Shown here piece after piece: positions 37,839 to 50,218 of a DNA stretch of 50,218 nucleotides. The notes under the pieces were generated by a model that did not search any database, was not told the DNA's origin, and saw only the letters and a program-made list of their open reading frames with translations. Position 1 is the stretch's first letter. Every line of letters starts with the position of its first letter. Source of the stretch: Hyphomonadaceae bacterium. GTDB lineage: Bacteria; Pseudomonadota; Alphaproteobacteria; Caulobacterales; Hyphomonadaceae. The translations under genes were made by a program, and so were the position numbers. The DNA lies in assembly GCA_030158285.1 (NCBI GenBank), contig JAOATF010000107.1, positions 1 to 50,218 on the forward strand, read 5' to 3'.

Positions 37839-39887
37839 CTACTTCGCGGCTGCGGCCTGCCTGGCTTCAACTGCCCGCGAGGCGGCCTTGCCGGTGACTT
37901 CGGCCATGTGGTCGAAGGCGGATTCCAGCTCGCCGAGGCCCTGCGTGGCCGAGCGGATCTCGATAATGAGATCGTGCAACTCGTCCTGCGGGATCGCGGC
38001 GCGGATGGAATCCCAACCGAACCAGCCATCGCGCGGCTCGAAGCCCAGTATCTGGCCGCGTCGTGTCGGCACGAGGCCGGTGATCCGCGCCATCTGGTCG
38101 GAGGGCGTGTGGATGATGACGAGGCTGACGGGTTCGAGCAGGACGCTCTCGCACTGTTCGAGCGCGAGGTTGACGCCGATACGGGCCGCGGTGCGGAAGG
38201 CGATCTCGGAGCTGTCGACGGCGTGATAGGAGCCATCGAGCAGCGTGACTTCCACATCGACGACCGGGAAGCCGAGCGGGCCTTTCATCAACGCGTCCTT
38301 CGCGCCTTCTTCCACCGCGCCGAAATATTGCTTCGGCACGGTGCCGCCATGGATCTTCTGGCTGAAGACAAAGCCGCTGCCGCGTTCGCCGGGACGCACG
38401 TCGAGCAGCACATCGCCGAACTGGCCGTGGCCGCCGGACTGCTTCTTGTGCTTGCCGCGTTGCGTGGAGGAGCGACGGATGGTTTCGCGATAGGGCGTCT
38501 GCGGGCGACGTGATTCAACCGCGACGCCGAATTTCCGCTTCACACGGTCGAGCGCGACGCGGAGATGCATCTCGCCCTGCCCTGATAGACGGAATTCGTG
38601 TGTCTCCGCGTCGGGGCCGAAAGTGAGCGCCGGGTCTTCATCGATGAGGCGCGCCATGGCGGTGGCGAGTTTCACATCGTCCGCCCGGTTGAGCGGCTCG
38701 ACGGCGAGTGAATAGACCGGCGTGCGTGAGACCTTCGGCGTGGCGTTGGCCTGCTTCTGGCCGTTGAGGCCGAGGAGATCGCCGGGCTTCGCCTTGTCGA
38801 TGCGGCCGAGATAGACGATGTCGCCGGGAGCGGCGCTGTCGACCTTGGACTGGCTCTCGCCATAGATCTGGAACACGCCGGCGACGCGTTCTGCGTGGCC
38901 ATCCGGGAGGGTGATGTTGTCGCCATCGACGAGGCCGCGTTGCCCGCCGGACATGACGCGCACCATGGTTTGCCGACCGGCTTGCCCGGCATAGCGCGTC
39001 TTCAGCACGGCAGCGGAGGAGCCGTCTGCGCCGAGACGTTGCGCCGCATTCGACAGCGCGGGTGTTTCGTGGCGCAGCGCTTTCAGCAGGCGGAGCACGC
39101 CGGAGCCGTTTTCGGCAGACCCCAGGAAGACCGGCACGATCTGCACGCGGCCGAGTTCGTCGGCGAGATCAGACATCACATGGTCGCGGCCGGGCGGCTG
39201 TTCGTTGATGAGCTCTTCCATCAGCTCGTCATCGAAATCGGCCATCTGCTCGAGCATGCGATAGCGCGCCTCGACCTCGCGGGACTTTTCTTCCTCGGGG
39301 ATCTGGATCAGCTTCGATGGCTTGCCGGACTCGTAGGTGTAGGCGCGCTCGAGGGCGAGATCGATGTAACCCTTGGCGCCGGAGCCATTCCAGATCGGAA
39401 TCTGGCGGGCGACCAGCGGCTCAAGACTGTAGGGCTGGATCGCGGCGATCATGTCGCGCACGCGGCCGCGCGCCTTGTCGATCTTGTTGATGAAGATGCA
39501 GTGCGGGGCTTGCAGTTCGTCGAGGCGGCGCAGGAGGGGTTGCAGCAGGCTGGCGCGCTCGGGATCCGGGTCGGCGACGACGATGGTGAGATCGACGGCG
39601 GGGAGGACGTTGTCGGCTTCGCTGAGGAAGTCGATCGAGCCGGGGCAATCGAGAACGACGTAGCGATCGTTCATGAAATCGAAGCCGACGGCGTTGAGGT
39701 CTGTCGAGAGACCTCGCGCCCTCGCCTCCTCTGTCGCGTCACCGACGGATGTGCCTTGCGACACCGATCCTTTTCGCTGGATGCGACCGGCCGCAAGCAG
39801 CATTGATTCAAGCAGGGTTGTCTTTCCGGTCCCGCAGGGTCCGCTCAAGGCGACCGCTCTGACGGTCGCCGCCTTTCCTCCGCTCAT
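37839..39887 (-). CDS. Elongation factor G-like GTPase
   Basis: 682 residues with all EF-G domains: G domain (G1 GPCGTGKT at 16-23, G3 DCPGSIDF at 80-87, G4 NKID at 134-137), domain II (about 290-380), domain III (DPALTF....E....GQGEMHL), domain IV (GGHGQFGDV...GSGFVF) and domain V (EPVSLVIIHTP...ITGLVPTRRGQILG). In canonical EF-G the G3 motif is DTPGHVDF with a catalytic His; here Ser84 takes that place, as in a class of EF-G-like paralogues. It is therefore not the housekeeping FusA, which is normally in the str operon. Start at ATG 39887 with AAGGAA. GTP hydrolysis may be slow; the cellular role is unclear. Confidence 0.9.
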   Translation of the reverse strand: MSGGKAATVRAVALSGPCGTGKTTLLESMLLAAGRIQRKGSVSQGTSVGDATEEARARGLSTDLNAVGFDFMNDRYVVLDCPGSIDFLSEADNVLPAVDLTIVVADPDPERASLLQPLLRRLDELQAPHCIFINKIDKARGRVRDMIAAIQPYSLEPLVARQIPIWNGSGAKGYIDLALERAYTYESGKPSKLIQIPEEEKSREVEARYRMLEQMADFDDELMEELINEQPPGRDHVMSDLADELGRVQIVPVFLGSAENGSGVLRLLKALRHETPALSNAAQRLGADGSSAAVLKTRYAGQAGRQTMVRVMSGGQRGLVDGDNITLPDGHAERVAGVFQIYGESQSKVDSAAPGDIVYLGRIDKAKPGDLLGLNGQKQANATPKVSRTPVYSLAVEPLNRADDVKLATAMARLIDEDPALTFGPDAETHEFRLSGQGEMHLRVALDRVKRKFGVAVESRRPQTPYRETIRRSSTQRGKHKKQSGGHGQFGDVLLDVRPGERGSGFVFSQKIHGGTVPKQYFGAVEEGAKDALMKGPLGFPVVDVEVTLLDGSYHAVDSSEIAFRTAARIGVNLALEQCESVLLEPVSLVIIHTPSDQMARITGLVPTRRGQILGFEPRDGWFGWDSIRAAIPQDELHDLIIEIRSATQGLGELESAFDHMAEVTGKAASRAVEARQAAAAK

Positions 39888-40070: not shown

Positions 40071-40547
40071 TCAGGCGGGTTCGATTGCCTTGTGCAGCTG
40101 CGCGACATCGTCGGCGAGACGGCGCATGAGACGCGTGATCTCGGCGAAGTCGCGATCTGACCATGCATCGAATGCGGGCAACACCAGCGTAGCGTGCGCT
40201 GCAGCAAGCGCGCGTGCGATGCGGCTGCCTCTCGCAGTCGCGACTGCCTGGCTGATGCGCCGGTCGTGTTCGCTGGGCTGGCGCTCGACCAGACCGAGGT
40301 CGACCAGCTTGCCGACCTGACGGGAAATAGTGGTGTGGTCGCGGCCGACAAGGTCGCCAAGTTCGACCACGCCGATGGGACCCTTTGCGTTGATCTTGAT
40401 GAGAAGCCTCGCCAACGCTGCGTCAAGCTCGACGCCCGCCTCCTCAAGAACGCGATTGTGAAGCTGGGGCTGATTCAGATTGGCGGTGAGATCGGCAAAA
40501 GCTGTTGCCAGCGCAGCGAAATCCCGGGCTCTTTGTGATCCACGCAC
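40071..40547 (-). CDS. MarR family transcriptional regulator
   Basis: 158 residues. The winged-helix core is LDAALARLLIKINAKGPIGVVELGDLVGRDHTTISRQVGKLVDLGLVERQPSEHDRR, with the DRR wing typical of MarR. N- and C-terminal helices would form the dimer. I chose GTG 40547 (GGAG 8 nt upstream); the ATG at 40586 in the longer frame lies inside the presumed -10 box TATAAT and has no SD. It is divergent from the copper monooxygenase gene, with a palindrome between them, so it probably controls that gene. Confidence 0.85.
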   Translation of the reverse strand: MRGSQRARDFAALATAFADLTANLNQPQLHNRVLEEAGVELDAALARLLIKINAKGPIGVVELGDLVGRDHTTISRQVGKLVDLGLVERQPSEHDRRISQAVATARGSRIARALAAAHATLVLPAFDAWSDRDFAEITRLMRRLADDVAQLHKAIEPA

Positions 40548-40580
40548 GTGTTGACTCCGACAGACGTCCGGGAAACATAT

Positions 40581-40593
40581 GTGCATTATACAC
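40581..40593 (-). promoter_or_regulatory. Candidate MarR operator overlapping the marR -10 box
   Basis: GTG-C-AT-T-AT-A-CAC is a 13-bp palindrome with one mismatched pair. It overlaps a consensus -10 hexamer, TATAAT on the - strand (40585-40590), which faces the marR gene, and on the other side lies a TTGACT (40551-40556) that could be a -35 for the + strand gene. Binding here would repress both genes. Confidence 0.45.
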
Positions 40594-40636
40594 GGAATGA
40601 AAGCGCCATGAGAGCGCTTCAGGAGGAGGACGCCAG

Positions 40637-42652
40637 ATGAAGACCCGTATCGCGTGGGTGAGCGTTGCTGCGCTCGCAATCGGCCTGACTGTTACAGGAT
40701 TGGCTGCAAGCGGCGTTGCGCTGGCGAACAATTCCGGTCCGCCCAGCCTGACGCCGGCGCGCGTCGACAACTTCCGCCTGACGGACAATCACGGCTTCGC
40801 GCAGGACCTGCGGCGACTGGTGGATGTGAAGGCGATCGCGGTGGTGTCCTACGTCAATGGCGACGCGGGATCGCGCAAGGCGGCGAAAGCGGTCGAGGCG
40901 CTGAAAGCGAAGTATCCGGACGTCGCCTTCATGATGCTGAACTCCAGCGCGGCGTCGCGACCGGAGATCGTGGCCGAGGCGAAGGCGCAGGGCATCAGCG
41001 TGCCGGTGCTGGACGACAACCTGCAGCTGGCGGGCGAGCAGCTGGGCGTCAGCTATGCAGGCGAGGCTTTCCTGATCGAACCGAAGACGTTGCGCGTGCT
41101 CTATCACGGGCCGGTGGATGGCGCGGGCGCCGCGACGAAAGCCAAGGGCTATCTGGCCGAGGCGCTGGCGGATATTGCCGCCGGGCGCGCGATTGCGACG
41201 GCGCAGGCGACGGGCAAAGGCACGCAGATCAAATTCCCGGAGCGCGACAACCGCGCGGCGCATGCGGCGATTTCCTACGCCAAGGATGTGGCGCCGGTGC
41301 TGGAGGCGAAGTGCGTCTCCTGTCACCAGGAGGGCGGGATCGGGCCATTTGCGATGTCGAGCTATGAGGCGGTGAAGAATTTCGCGCCGATGATCCGCGA
41401 GGCGATCCGCACGAAGACAATGCCGCCGTGGCATCCCGATCCGGCGTTCGGGAAGTTCGAGCATGATGGCGGACTGTCGGGCGACCAGATCCGCACGATC
41501 GTTCACTGGGTGGAGGCTGGCGCGCCGCGTGGCGAAGGCGCTGACCCGCTGTCGGCTGAGGCGCACGTCGCGCCGGATTGGCCGCTGGGCAAGCCGGACC
41601 TCGTGATCGAAGTGCCGGCTTACACTGTGCCGGCGTCGGGCGTGGTGGACTATCAGTATCCGGCGGCGGTGAACCCGCAGACGGAAGCGCGCTGGGTGAA
41701 AGCCGCGACGCTGTTGCCGGGCGACCGGCAGGCGACGCACCATATTCTGTCCGGCTACATGCCGAAGATGATGACGGGCGCGGCTTCCTCGCAGCTGTGG
41801 GAAGCTTCTTATGGCGAATATGCGGTGGGCGGGGAGTCGCTGACCATGCCGAAGGGCACGGGCATCCAGCTGCCGGCGGGCGGGGCCATGGGCTTCCAGA
41901 TGCACTACACGCCCTATGGCAAGGAAGCCGTCGATAAATCGAAGATCGGCTTCTACTTCTATCCGAAGGGCGAAGAGCCCGACCGCGTGATGCGCCACTT
42001 CGTGATCGCCAACAATTTCATCGAGATCCCGCCGGGCGACGACAACCACGAGGAAGTCGCCTACGCGACTTTCCCCAAGGACGCGACGCTGCATTCGGTG
42101 TTCCTGCACACGCACTATCGCGGTCGCGCGGGCAGCCTGGAAATGCTGAAACCGGACGGCACACGCGAAATGCTGATCAGCCTGCCCCGCTACGACTTCA
42201 ACTGGCAGCGGACGTATAACTTCGCCACCCCCGTAAAAGTGCCGGCCGGATCCAAGCTGATCGCGACGTACTGGTATGACAATTCCGTCCGCAATCCGGC
42301 GAACCCCGACCCGAAGCAGACCATCGTGTGGGGCCCGCAATCGTGGGAGGAGATGCACTATACCTCGCTGTACTATCAGTGGGACGCGGAGACCGTGGCG
42401 CATCCGGCGGATGCGACCAAGGAGATGAAGTCCATGCCGGTGCGCATGATGGGTGCGCTGGACAGGAACTTTGACGGCAAGGTCCAGCGTGGCGAACTGC
42501 CGGGGCGCGTGGAGAAAGTGCTGGGACCGAAGTTCGACGAGCTGGATGCGGACAAGAGCGGCGCGCTGGAAACGGCGGAGCTGGGGCCGGCGATGAAACT
42601 GCTGACGCCGCTGGTGCGGACGTCGTCCAGAAGTGAAGAGCCGACGCCGTAG
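40637..42652 (+). CDS. Secreted fusion: thioredoxin-like, cytochrome c and PHM-type dicopper monooxygenase with EF-hands
   Basis: 671 residues. A signal peptide (about 1-30) is followed by a peroxiredoxin/thioredoxin-like domain (35-190) with no redox Cys pair, a c-haem site CVSCH (226-230) with the family-typical MPPWHPDP (262-269), and a copper type II ascorbate-dependent monooxygenase core. Copper ligands of the PHM pattern are visible: His368-His369 and His423 for the first copper; His491, His493 (LHTHYRG) and Met573 (SWEEMHY) for the second. Two EF-hand loops (609-620, DRNFDGKVQRGE; 637-648, DADKSGALETAE) end the protein. The likely reaction is hydroxylation of an unknown periplasmic substrate with electrons passed through the haem. 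A MarR gene is divergent and an unknown secreted protein follows. Confidence 0.85.
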   Translation: MKTRIAWVSVAALAIGLTVTGLAASGVALANNSGPPSLTPARVDNFRLTDNHGFAQDLRRLVDVKAIAVVSYVNGDAGSRKAAKAVEALKAKYPDVAFMMLNSSAASRPEIVAEAKAQGISVPVLDDNLQLAGEQLGVSYAGEAFLIEPKTLRVLYHGPVDGAGAATKAKGYLAEALADIAAGRAIATAQATGKGTQIKFPERDNRAAHAAISYAKDVAPVLEAKCVSCHQEGGIGPFAMSSYEAVKNFAPMIREAIRTKTMPPWHPDPAFGKFEHDGGLSGDQIRTIVHWVEAGAPRGEGADPLSAEAHVAPDWPLGKPDLVIEVPAYTVPASGVVDYQYPAAVNPQTEARWVKAATLLPGDRQATHHILSGYMPKMMTGAASSQLWEASYGEYAVGGESLTMPKGTGIQLPAGGAMGFQMHYTPYGKEAVDKSKIGFYFYPKGEEPDRVMRHFVIANNFIEIPPGDDNHEEVAYATFPKDATLHSVFLHTHYRGRAGSLEMLKPDGTREMLISLPRYDFNWQRTYNFATPVKVPAGSKLIATYWYDNSVRNPANPDPKQTIVWGPQSWEEMHYTSLYYQWDAETVAHPADATKEMKSMPVRMMGALDRNFDGKVQRGELPGRVEKVLGPKFDELDADKSGALETAELGPAMKLLTPLVRTSSRSEEPTP

Positions 42653-42681
42653 CGCCAGCAACCAAGTTGAGGGAGGGTTTC

Positions 42682-43731
42682 GTGAAGACCAGCATGATCG
42701 CCGCGCTTGCCCTGGCGGGCTTTGGCCTTGCCGCTCCGGCCTTTGCGCAGAGTGAAGCAGGCAAGACGGCGCCGGGCTTCGAGACGCCACGGACAAGCTG
42801 GGGCGTGCCGGACATCGGCGGCTTCTGGACCAATACTTCACTGACCGCGATGCAGCGCCCGGCCGGCGCCGAGAAGCTGACGATGACGGCGGAGGAAGCG
42901 GAGAAGCTGACGCATCGTAATGTCTATTCCGCTGCTGAGCGCGAGGAGTCTGGCGCATCGAAAGTGGATGCGGCGTCTTCGAAAGAGCTGCTGTCGGATG
43001 GCAATGCGTCGCGCGCCTACAACCGGTTCTGGATGGACCCGGGTTCCAGCTATGCGCAGGTGAAGGGACAGTTCCGCTCGTCGTGGATCACGCAACCGGC
43101 TGACGGGAAAATTCCGTACACCGAGGCAGGCATCAAGGCGAACACGCGCTCGACCACGTTCGACGATTTCGAGATCAGGCCCCTGCCCGAGCGTTGCATC
43201 ATGAGCTTCACCGGTGGCGCGGGCCCGGTGATGAACAACGGGATGTACAACAACACCTACCAGATCGTTCAGACGCCCGGATCGGTGATGATCCTGACGG
43301 AGATGATCCACGACGTTCGCGTGATCCCGATCGGCGGCAAGCATGGCCCTAACAACATTCCGAAATGGGGCGGAGATTCCATCGGCTGGTATGAGGGCGA
43401 CACGCTGGTGGTGGAGACGATCAACTCGCATCCGAAGCAGCGCAGCTATATCTCGCCGGCGGGCAAGGTGACGGAGCGCTATACGCGCTGGTCCGCTGAC
43501 GAAATCTTCTATGAGTTCCGCGTGGAGGATCCGGTGCTTTATACGGAGTCCTGGGGCGGAGAGATGTCGCTGCGCGTGTCGGAGAAGCCGCTCTACGAAT
43601 ACGCGTGCCATGAGGGCAACCACGCGCTGCCGGGCATTCTAGCGGGCGCGCGGGAGCTGGAACGGCAGGGACGTCCGCATCCGGTGGAGCTGCCGATCTT
43701 TGCGGGCGTGGATGTTTCGGACGGGGAGTAG
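42682..43731 (+). CDS. Secreted protein of unknown family, linked to the copper monooxygenase
   Basis: 349 residues, GTG start with GGGAGGG just upstream and a Sec signal peptide (ending APAFAQS). The mature protein is Trp/Tyr-rich with features such as PRTSWGVPDIGGFWTN, RPLPERCIMSFTGGAGPVMNNGMYNNTYQIVQTPGSV (in parts), EMIHDVRVIPIGG, WGGDSIGWYEGDTLVVET, and a C-terminal YACHEGNHALPGILAGARE. Repeated beta-strand patterning suggests a beta-propeller-like or beta-rich fold. The family is common next to redox proteins in proteobacteria, but I know no function. It is 29 nt after the monooxygenase stop and almost certainly co-transcribed. Confidence 0.83.
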   Translation: MKTSMIAALALAGFGLAAPAFAQSEAGKTAPGFETPRTSWGVPDIGGFWTNTSLTAMQRPAGAEKLTMTAEEAEKLTHRNVYSAAEREESGASKVDAASSKELLSDGNASRAYNRFWMDPGSSYAQVKGQFRSSWITQPADGKIPYTEAGIKANTRSTTFDDFEIRPLPERCIMSFTGGAGPVMNNGMYNNTYQIVQTPGSVMILTEMIHDVRVIPIGGKHGPNNIPKWGGDSIGWYEGDTLVVETINSHPKQRSYISPAGKVTERYTRWSADEIFYEFRVEDPVLYTESWGGEMSLRVSEKPLYEYACHEGNHALPGILAGARELERQGRPHPVELPIFAGVDVSDGE

Positions 43732-48124: not shown

Positions 48125-49795
48125 TTGAAGACGACGACGGGCATCATGTGCGCGTTTGCGCTGGGCGCTGGCCTGCTGGGCGCGGCAGTTATCCTGCCTG
48201 CGACGCCCTCCCCTGCCTGGGCGCAGCAGGCGCCGGTGGTCGAGCCGATCAAGGTGTCCGTGCGGCGGATCACCGAGAGCCAGTATCGCCATACGATTGC
48301 AGACGTGTTCGGGCCGGACATCGCGATCAATGCGCGGTTCGAGCCGGACAAGCGTGAGCATGGCTTGCTGGCGCTGGGCAGCGCGAACCTGTCGCTGACG
48401 TCTTCGGGGTTCGAGCAGTATTTCGCGATGGCGGGATCGATTGCCGACCAGGTTGTGGATGCCAAGCGGCGCGAGCAGACGGTGGGCTGCGCGCCGGCGG
48501 ATGCGAAGAAGGCGGATGCGGCGTGTGCGCGGGCCTTCATCATGCGTCTGGGCGAGAAGCTGTTCCGGCGTCCGCTGAGCGAGGGCGAGATTGCGTCGCG
48601 GCTGGCGGTGGCGAATGCAGGGGCAGACAAGGCGAAGGATTTCTATGCCGGGCTCGACCTTGCGCTGACCAGCACGCTGATGTCGCCAGAGTTCCTGTTC
48701 CGTATCGAGATGGCGGAGCCGGACCCTGCAAACGCCCGTGGTTACAGGCTGGATGCGTATTCCAAGGCGGGGCGGCTGGCTTACCTGTTGTGGGACACGG
48801 CGCCCGATGCAGAGCTGCTGGCGGCGGCGAAGAGCGGCGCGATCCATGATCCGGCGCAGCTGAAGGCGCAGCTGGAGCGGATGACGCAATCGCCGCGCTT
48901 CGAGGCAGGCGCGCGGGCTTTCTTCGTCGACATGCTGCAGCTCGACGGGTTCGACAACATGATCAAGGACCCGGTCGCGTATCCGAAATTCAACCAGTCG
49001 GTGGCGGACAGCGCGAAGGAACAGACGCTGCTGACGACGATCGACCTGCTGGTGACGAAGCAGCGGGATTATCGCGAGCTGTTCACCTCGAACGAGACGT
49101 TCATCAACCGCTACCTCGCGGCTGTCTACAAGGTGCCGTTCGCGTCGGATGCCGAATGGGCGCCGTATACGTTTCCGGCCAGTTCGGAGCGCGCGGGCAT
49201 TCTCACGCAGGTGAGTTTCCTGTCGCTGTTTGCGCATCCGGCGAGTTCATCGCCGACGCGGCGCGGCGTGAAGATGCACGAGATCTTCATGTGCGAGCCG
49301 ACGCCGGACCCGCCGGCCGACGTCGATTTCTCGAAGGTGCAGGCGCTGGCCAATGGCACGGTGCGGACGCGCCTGCTGGACCACATGGAGAATACAGGCT
49401 GCACGGCCTGTCACCGCCGCAGCGACCCGCCTGGACTGGCGCTGGAGCATTTCGACGGGCTGGGGCAGCTGCGCAAGACGGAGAACGGTACGCTGATTGA
49501 TGTCAGCGCGACGATGGACAGCAAGACGTTCACGGGCGCTCCGGGGCTGGCTGACTATCTGAAAGGTGACACGCGCATTCCCTCGTGCCTCGTTCGCAAT
49601 GTCTACGCGTATGGGACGGGCAAGACGCCGGACGAGCGGGATGAGGATTATCTCGCGGACCAGTCGGCGGCGTTTGCGGCGGGCGGGTATCGCCTGCCCG
49701 GCCTGATGAGGCAGATCGTTTCCAGCCCTGAGTTCTTCAAGGTTTCCATTCCCTCGGGCGCGCGGCCGGCGGCTGCGTCCTCGCCCGCCAACTAG
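48125..49795 (+). CDS. Secreted haem protein with DUF1592/DUF1588/DUF1585-type domains
   Basis: 556 residues with a signal peptide (ending PAWAQQ). The domain order is that of planctomycete-type proteins: an N-terminal R.ITESQYRHTIADVFG (DUF1587-like), FRRPLSEGE (DUF1595-like), DUF1592 in the centre, SPTRRGVKMHEIFMCEPTPDPP (DUF1588) with a c-haem site CTACH at 426-430 followed by DPPGLALEHFDGLG, and IPSCLVRNVYAYGTG (DUF1585) at the end. The start is TTG 48125 with GGGAGGG 7 nt upstream; an ATG at 48146 is the alternative. The function of these proteins is unknown; they travel with DUF1552 proteins, as here (22 nt apart). Confidence 0.9.
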   Translation: MKTTTGIMCAFALGAGLLGAAVILPATPSPAWAQQAPVVEPIKVSVRRITESQYRHTIADVFGPDIAINARFEPDKREHGLLALGSANLSLTSSGFEQYFAMAGSIADQVVDAKRREQTVGCAPADAKKADAACARAFIMRLGEKLFRRPLSEGEIASRLAVANAGADKAKDFYAGLDLALTSTLMSPEFLFRIEMAEPDPANARGYRLDAYSKAGRLAYLLWDTAPDAELLAAAKSGAIHDPAQLKAQLERMTQSPRFEAGARAFFVDMLQLDGFDNMIKDPVAYPKFNQSVADSAKEQTLLTTIDLLVTKQRDYRELFTSNETFINRYLAAVYKVPFASDAEWAPYTFPASSERAGILTQVSFLSLFAHPASSSPTRRGVKMHEIFMCEPTPDPPADVDFSKVQALANGTVRTRLLDHMENTGCTACHRRSDPPGLALEHFDGLGQLRKTENGTLIDVSATMDSKTFTGAPGLADYLKGDTRIPSCLVRNVYAYGTGKTPDERDEDYLADQSAAFAAGGYRLPGLMRQIVSSPEFFKVSIPSGARPAAASSPAN

Positions 49796-49817
49796 CTTCC
49801 AGCAGGAGACACGCGAC

Positions 49818-50218
49818 ATGAGCCTGCCTTTCAATCGTCGTTCGGTGATGCGCGGACTTCTTGCCGGCGCTGGCATCTGTGTCGGCATTCCGACGCTGGA
49901 CCAGTTCCTCAATGGCAATGGCAATGCGTGGGCCGATGGGGCCAAGCTGCCGGTGCGGTTCGGGACATACTTCTGGGGGCTTGGGCTGACCGACACGCCC
50001 GCGGGCGGCACGCGCTGGGTGCCGAAGACGGTTGGACATGGCTATGAGATCACGCCGGAGCTGGAGTCGCTGGCGAAGGTGAAGGACAAGGTGTCCGTGT
50101 TCTCCGGCTTCCGCGCGATTGGCGACGGGCGGGCGAACCTGGTGCACTGGAGCGGCAGCGCGTCGATCCTGTCGGGCGTGGCGCCGGCGGTGACGACGCG
50201 GTTCGATGCGCCGAGCTT
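49818..50218 (+). CDS. DUF1552 family protein (cut by window end)
   Basis: The first 133 codons are present with no stop before the window end. A twin-Arg signal (NRRSVMRGLLAGAGICVGIPTLD) is followed by LPVRFGTYFWGLGLT, a G..WVP block, ITPELE.L...KDKVSVFSG and VHWSGSASILSG, matching DUF1552, whose members average 400-450 residues. ATG 49818 follows AGGAG. Tat export would mean it folds, perhaps with a cofactor, before crossing the membrane. It is the standard partner of DUF1592 proteins; function unknown. Confidence 0.9.
   Translation, partial: MSLPFNRRSVMRGLLAGAGICVGIPTLDQFLNGNGNAWADGAKLPVRFGTYFWGLGLTDTPAGGTRWVPKTVGHGYEITPELESLAKVKDKVSVFSGFRAIGDGRANLVHWSGSASILSGVAPAVTTRFDAPS

Follow-up and report, generated by a model that had tools for sequence, protein, structure and literature searches.

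How is a dicopper monooxygenase that is predicted to work outside the cytoplasm supplied with electrons? The question is raised by a locus in a 50,218-nucleotide stretch of DNA (the window) from a Hyphomonadaceae bacterium (assembly GCA_030158285.1, contig JAOATF010000107.1), in which a single 671-residue protein, P0001, combines a thioredoxin-like domain, a haem c domain, a copper core of the PHM/DBM type, and two EF-hand loops. A divergent MarR-family gene lies upstream and a second gene, coding for P0002, follows. An earlier reading of the DNA (the original prediction) had taken the three genes as a compact, undescribed unit with electron donor and monooxygenase wired in one chain. We regard it as fairly probable that P0001 is an extracytoplasmic PHM/DBM-type dicopper hydroxylase that depends on O2 and draws electrons from its own cytochrome c, and that the MarR protein represses the monooxygenase and P0002 genes as a pair.

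The predicted copper core and its ligands

The open reading frame, its length, and every residue quoted in the original prediction (HH 368-369, H423, H491, H493, and M573) are correct, and the PHM-type dicopper core proposed there is borne out by structural comparison, by a Pfam match, and by the conservation of its ligands. A model of P0001 (AlphaFold2, from 7 sequences) finds rat PHM (1phm) first in Foldseek, with E 4.3e-10 and a template modeling score by target of 0.63, and human DBH (4zel) second (E 6.0e-10), among the best 50 of 217 rows with E <= 0.001. PF03712 (Cu2_monoox_C) matches residues 484-580 at 25.3 bits against a cut-off of 23; it is matched by 31 of 55 family members (E <= 0.001, as for the other member counts below) and stands above cut-off at 6 of 8 places in a search of the bacterium's own genome. 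A profile of the core only (23 members) has a single PDB match at E <= 10, which is again human DBH 4zel (E 4.7e-5), and its alignment sets the family's HYT on the DBH HYH (H423) and its HAH on the DBH HTH (H491/H493). The two aligned DBH places are separated by 79, the same distance as between H333 and H412, which we take to be the DBH ligands. The copper sets of PHM and DBM consist of HH plus H at CuH and HxH plus M at CuM; HH 368-369 and M573 lie outside the 4zel-aligned stretch and are assigned by order and invariance. As modeled, the core fold of P0001 is PHM/DBM-like.

Conservation was read from an 88-row alignment of the 8 own-genome copies and the best 80 of 369 loci found in a scan of genome contigs; these rows are not independent and include near-copies (the smaller alignments A1, A4, and A5 hold 7 of the 8 own copies, 55 of the 88 rows, and 23 of the 88 rows, respectively). 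C226, C229, H230, M262, H368, H369, H423, H491, H493, and M573 are identical in all 88 rows. The 55-row alignment has 56 invariant columns, and only six of the 18 histidines in P0001 are among them, namely, the haem histidine and the five copper histidines. The scan's two peptide patterns are located in or next to the haem domain, so that M252 was selected by them and the copper ligands were not. Given the 88/88 identity, the ligand pattern is not a matter of chance. We note that one own-genome copy, C181, has two additional cysteines flanking the second copper histidine motif.

P0001 thus shares with PHM (1phm) the predicted core fold and the set HH, H / HxH, M, but lacks a core disulfide, as its only cysteines are those of the haem site. 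PHM for its part is linked to a lyase, as PAM, and lacks fused domains of the haem, thioredoxin-like, or EF-hand kinds. The copper histidines of DBH (4zel) align with the P0001 core; DBH carries an N-terminal DOMON domain, where P0001 instead has its thioredoxin-like and haem c domains.

Haem site, thioredoxin-like domain, and electron entry

As predicted originally, the thioredoxin-like domain is free of cysteine and there is a single CxxCH: C226 and C229, in CVSCH at 226-230, are the sole cysteines of P0001. The domain therefore cannot be a thiol donor in P0001, and this role is ruled out; from the sequence, the haem is the only candidate electron donor within the chain. The cytochrome Pfam match of P0001 is below cut-off (21.1 versus 27 bits), and Cytochrome_CBB3 is matched by 18 of 55 members. 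The haem is probably ligated by His and Met. Its CxxCH site is unvaried in all rows, unlike the cysteines of the thioredoxin-like domain, and this contrast between a constant haem site and changing thiols favors the haem as the point where electrons enter.

The N-terminal domain of P0001 resembles SMc02350 (3u5r), 2ywi, and 2cvb (3u5r is also the best match of thioredoxin kind to the P0001 model among the Foldseek matches listed). Relatives that bear cysteines keep the matching GCPI/GCLI pair at positions 76 and 196, but P0001 and the seven other full-length copies of its genome have neither cysteine. Across the 88 rows, both are present in 28 and neither in 59, and one row that is cut at the N terminus carries the second cysteine only. 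A tree built from the haem and copper region (87 rows, with L105 left out and the cut row scored as Cys-bearing) requires at least 6 changes of the cysteine state, and starred branches force 4 of these. We infer that the direction is loss from a Cys-bearing ancestor, because the stand-alone relatives (3u5r and a gene on contig C8 of the same genome) bear the cysteines.

A gene of one redoxin cluster, AhpC-TSA by Pfam (one representative), is the immediate downstream neighbor of 9 of 28 Cys-bearing members versus 0 of 59 Cys-less members (Fisher 1.3e-5, kinship ignored); the count covers this one cluster in our own gene calls, and some loci stop at a contig end. Two members that seemed to lack the thioredoxin-like domain (G014:C59 and G002:C74) were rejected as natural variants, as the contigs end there and the genes are cut. 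The stand-alone gene on C8 (L154, 4042-4950) retains the Cys pair and is a possible thiol partner; it lies about 0.4 kb after a gene for a 1,072-residue protein that resembles a TonB-dependent receptor by eye.

Fusion of this kind recalls cellobiose dehydrogenase and LPMO, in which a cytochrome acts as electron donor to a copper monooxygenase, with separate chains and a b-type haem. The likeness to P0001 is in logic only, and the folds are unrelated.

P0001 is probably exported from the cytoplasm; several relatives have instead a lipobox-like cysteine near residue 20. The two EF-hand loops originally proposed are present and probably bind calcium. In P0001 they score under the Pfam cut-off, and EF-hand_5 is matched by 33 of 55 members.

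Neighboring genes and the intergenic region

The coordinates of the features are collected in Table 1. An AGGAGG stretch is read in the sequence upstream of the P0001 start. The divergent gene is indeed a MarR gene, with PF01047 matching its product at 40.1 bits (3.3e-10) against a cut-off of 24.6. Both it and its counterpart at L040 were missed by our gene calls, which score codon usage. Close orthologues of the monooxygenase were compared at three loci: the window, L039 (in G005), and L040 (in G009), both of the latter in the window's genus. MarR stands beside two of the three (the window and L040) and is lacking at L039. A search of 25 genomes with the MarR protein at E <= 1e-8 gave a single match in the own genome, one in a single genome (G009) of the 14 others of the genus, and one, 41% identical, in the order-level genome G033; G005 has no match at this threshold anywhere in its genome.

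Table 1. Positions of the features described, numbered along the window
Feature	Position	Strand	Basis
MarR-family regulator, divergent, 158 residues, proposed start GTG 40547	40071-40547	-	PF01047; start aligned to L040 ATG
25-nucleotide block, core GTGCATTATACAC, candidate MarR operator	40574-40598		Identical in L040
P0001, thioredoxin-like / haem c / dicopper monooxygenase / EF-hand protein, 671 residues, probably exported	40637-42652	+	
Signal peptide of P0001, residues 1-30, ALA end then NNSG	40637-40726	+	Judged by eye
Thioredoxin-like (AhpC-TSA/redoxin) domain without cysteine, residues ~42-201	40760-41239	+	Profile match 3u5r, 2ywi, 2cvb; Foldseek 3u5r
Mono-haem cytochrome c domain, residues ~212-297	41270-41527	+	Cytochrome_CBB3 below cut-off; invariant CxxCH, M262
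Haem attachment site CVSCH, C226-V-S-C229-H230	41312-41326	+	88/88 relatives
M262 (MPP), probable distal haem ligand by inferred role	41420-41422	+	88/88 relatives
PHM/DBM-type copper core, residues ~318-590	41588-42406	+	Foldseek 1phm, 4zel; hmmsearch 4zel; PF03712
H368-H369, predicted CuH ligands	41738-41743	+	88/88
H423, predicted CuH ligand	41903-41905	+	88/88; aligned to HYH of 4zel
H491-x-H493, predicted CuM ligands	42107-42115	+	88/88; aligned to HTH of 4zel
M573, predicted CuM ligand	42353-42355	+	88/88
EF-hand loop 1, residues 609-620	42461-42496	+	D609, E620 in 87/88, gap in one
EF-hand loop 2, residues 637-648	42545-42580	+	D637 in 87/88, gap in one
P0002, 349 residues, GTG start, probably secreted, possible calycin-like (FABP/lipocalin) barrel	42682-43731	+	29 nucleotides past monooxygenase stop

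The original prediction also placed an operator over the -10 of the promoter. What stands of this is a 25-nucleotide block in the 89-nucleotide intergenic stretch that is identical in L040; the probability of such a run, computed on 40550-40636, is 4e-4 if the identity outside the block is assumed and 9e-3 with the pooled one. At L039, which has no MarR, the best match to the 14-nucleotide core in the 301 nucleotides before the gene is 8/14. A scan found no sigma-70 promoter, and no palindrome in 40550-40636 was shown to be significant: the best (40601-40619, score 5.0) is reached by 202 of 500 shuffles, and GTGCATTATACAC scores lower, at 4.6. A regulon of the core was likewise rejected, with one genome match within 2 mismatches versus two for a reversed control.

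P0002 was described originally as a secreted protein of unknown family, and this holds up: it is without a match in Pfam or a meaningful one in NCBIfam, and secretion is probable. Twenty-five members of its family have only chance-level matches to Pfam. Its model has a predicted local distance difference test (pLDDT) value of 73, and the 50 Foldseek rows listed comprise 49 of the FABP/CRBP type and one streptavidin (best E 1.8e-3). There are 31 matches to the family in the own genome and 24, 30, 32, 34, and 51 in five others, all six belonging to one taxonomic family, with some genes counted as two pieces, and members share conserved RC and YEYACHEGN motifs; this is a large, unannotated family of proteins that are probably secreted.

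An orthologue of P0002 follows the monooxygenase at all three close orthologous loci, with 83% identity at both L039, where the contig end cuts it, and L040; at L046 an orthologue of 75% identity is convergent. Beyond close orthologues, linkage of the two families is suggestive only. Around the 80 collection loci, 10 P0002-like open reading frames lie within 3 kb (440 kb in total) and 1 beyond (617 kb), with p 0.001 by open reading frame and 0.011 with orthologues and tandem copies merged; the P0002 profile was built with most of the near frames, and the count therefore leans toward them.

Several other genes are noted in passing. An EF-G-like protein adjoins the locus (37839-39674), has a counterpart of 83% identity at the corresponding position in L040, and was not found in L039. 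At the far end of the window (48125-50218) there is a DUF1587/1592/1588/1585/1595 protein and, adjacent to it, the beginning of a DUF1552 protein that runs off the contig; this pair is common in planctomycetes. At L106, L113, L115, and L117, genes of two clusters come after the family member; in L115 these are represented by a subtilase and a TPR histidine kinase.

Family distribution, rival readings, and meaning

P0001 belongs to a multicopy family. In the own genome (4.19 Mb in 271 contigs), P0001 is one of 8 full-length copies and shares 44-52% identity with the remaining seven; two further relatives are thioredoxin-like only. The best 80 of the 369 related loci lie on contigs titled as Hyphomonadaceae, Caulobacteraceae/Phenylobacterium, Parvularculaceae, unnamed Alphaproteobacteria, and in some cases Gammaproteobacteria such as HTCC2143. 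A survey of 41 genomes (the own genome included: 15 of the genus, 10 others of the family, and 16 of the order) found matches in all 14 other genus genomes, with 3-17 each when fragments and thioredoxin-only genes are included; two full-length members are present in one of these (G011), and at least two long matches in each of the 15 genus genomes searched. Full-length members are present in three of the 10 other family genomes (G016, G020, and G023) and weak matches only in two (G018 and G021), and the order genomes have weak matches alone, in G029 and G037. One member in G023 (L156, 6765-8698) is in two overlapping frames, a frameshift in either the gene or the assembly. Among 249 phylum-wide genomes, only the own genome has a match at E <= 1e-30, with at most 4 candidates per genome scored among the rows listed. 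Carriage on plasmids was rejected, P0001 having no match and P0002 one partial match in a plasmid collection. We found no described homologue with the P0001 architecture in PDB sequences, NCBIfam, or open-literature listings (which leave out most subscription journals and all preprints); public databases probably include proteins from other phyla in which comparable domains are combined.

In the mechanism that we propose, the c-type haem of P0001, and not a thiol or free ascorbate alone, would pass single electrons to CuH; CuM would then activate O2, and a C-H bond of a substrate would be hydroxylated. The thioredoxin-like domain would be a redox-dead structural or docking module. P0002 may serve to bind a hydrophobic substrate or product or to present it, which is the weakest step, and the MarR protein probably represses the monooxygenase and P0002 via 40574-40598, here and in one other species. 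Both the path from haem to CuH and the hydroxylation itself are proposals. Several observations weigh against this account. PF01082 (Cu2_monooxygen) is absent from the Pfam matches of P0001 and of the 55 members, which we attribute to divergence; the P0001 model has a mean pLDDT of only 68, with values <50 in stretches that include 227-239 and 258-279, beside the haem; and the fold match of P0002 is weak, with none at E <= 0.001. Orthologues of P0002 (80-82% identical) in G004, G007, G010, and G013 lie away from matches to the monooxygenase family, and the pairing of the two genes is therefore local. In five genomes, P0002-family genes are within 1.5 kb of 3 of 35 monooxygenase places (0.9 expected, p 0.06), a count that sets 35 monooxygenase-family against 135 P0002 places among the matches listed, with short or fragmentary rows dropped by hand and the split G023 gene entered as one place.

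The poor model around the haem would also suit a PHM/DBM-type monooxygenase whose reductant is ascorbate or some other small molecule, with the haem off the catalytic path and acting as a redox sensor, serving a structural purpose, or connecting to another partner, and the copper core does resemble those of animal enzymes that use ascorbate. We think this rather unlikely, as the haem cysteines, histidine, and M262 are invariant like the copper ligands (88/88), and the thiol site of the same chain has changed repeatedly but the haem site has not. No neighbor gene common to all 88 family loci was seen, and this would suit a PHM-fold cuproprotein that does not hydroxylate but has a more general extracytoplasmic role, in copper binding, copper sensing, or reductase chemistry; such a role is quite improbable with both copper sites complete, CuM methionine included, in every row.

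The locus might also be a dedicated three-gene system under MarR control with a specialized function of its own, and MarR, the monooxygenase, and P0002 do occur together in the window and at L040 in G009, with the 25-nucleotide block in common. The compact, undescribed unit of the original prediction did not survive the wider comparison, though, and we consider a dedicated system unlikely: the monooxygenase is one of 8 genome copies and 369 related loci, MarR is present at two of three orthologues, G005 has the monooxygenase and P0002 with no MarR match, the arrangement is not seen at other copies and relatives, and the P0002 orthologues of four other genus genomes are located elsewhere. We return to the hydroxylase fed by its own cytochrome c as the preferred reading. 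A broader proposal, in which one branch of the superfamily of noradrenaline and peptide-amidation enzymes has exchanged diffusible ascorbate for a covalently attached cytochrome c, so that the dicopper hydroxylase is driven by extracytoplasmic electron flow, and has repeatedly switched off an ancestral thiol relay, the multicopy family acting on hydrophobic compounds that a far larger set of secreted calycin-like binding proteins would carry, is tentative, and we hold it as possible rather than probable.

How electrons are delivered to CuH and cross to CuM is a central question for PHM and DBH. A natural haem fusion would offer a spectroscopic handle on it, with electron entry followed as haem oxidation, and sister clades that differ in both cysteines of the thiol site provide a built-in comparison of two wiring schemes. 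P0001 is a bacterial relative of the animal copper enzymes of noradrenaline synthesis and peptide amidation, probably exported, with its own cytochrome as the likely electron supply; with at least two long matches in every genome of the genus searched, the family probably has a bearing on what these bacteria oxidize.

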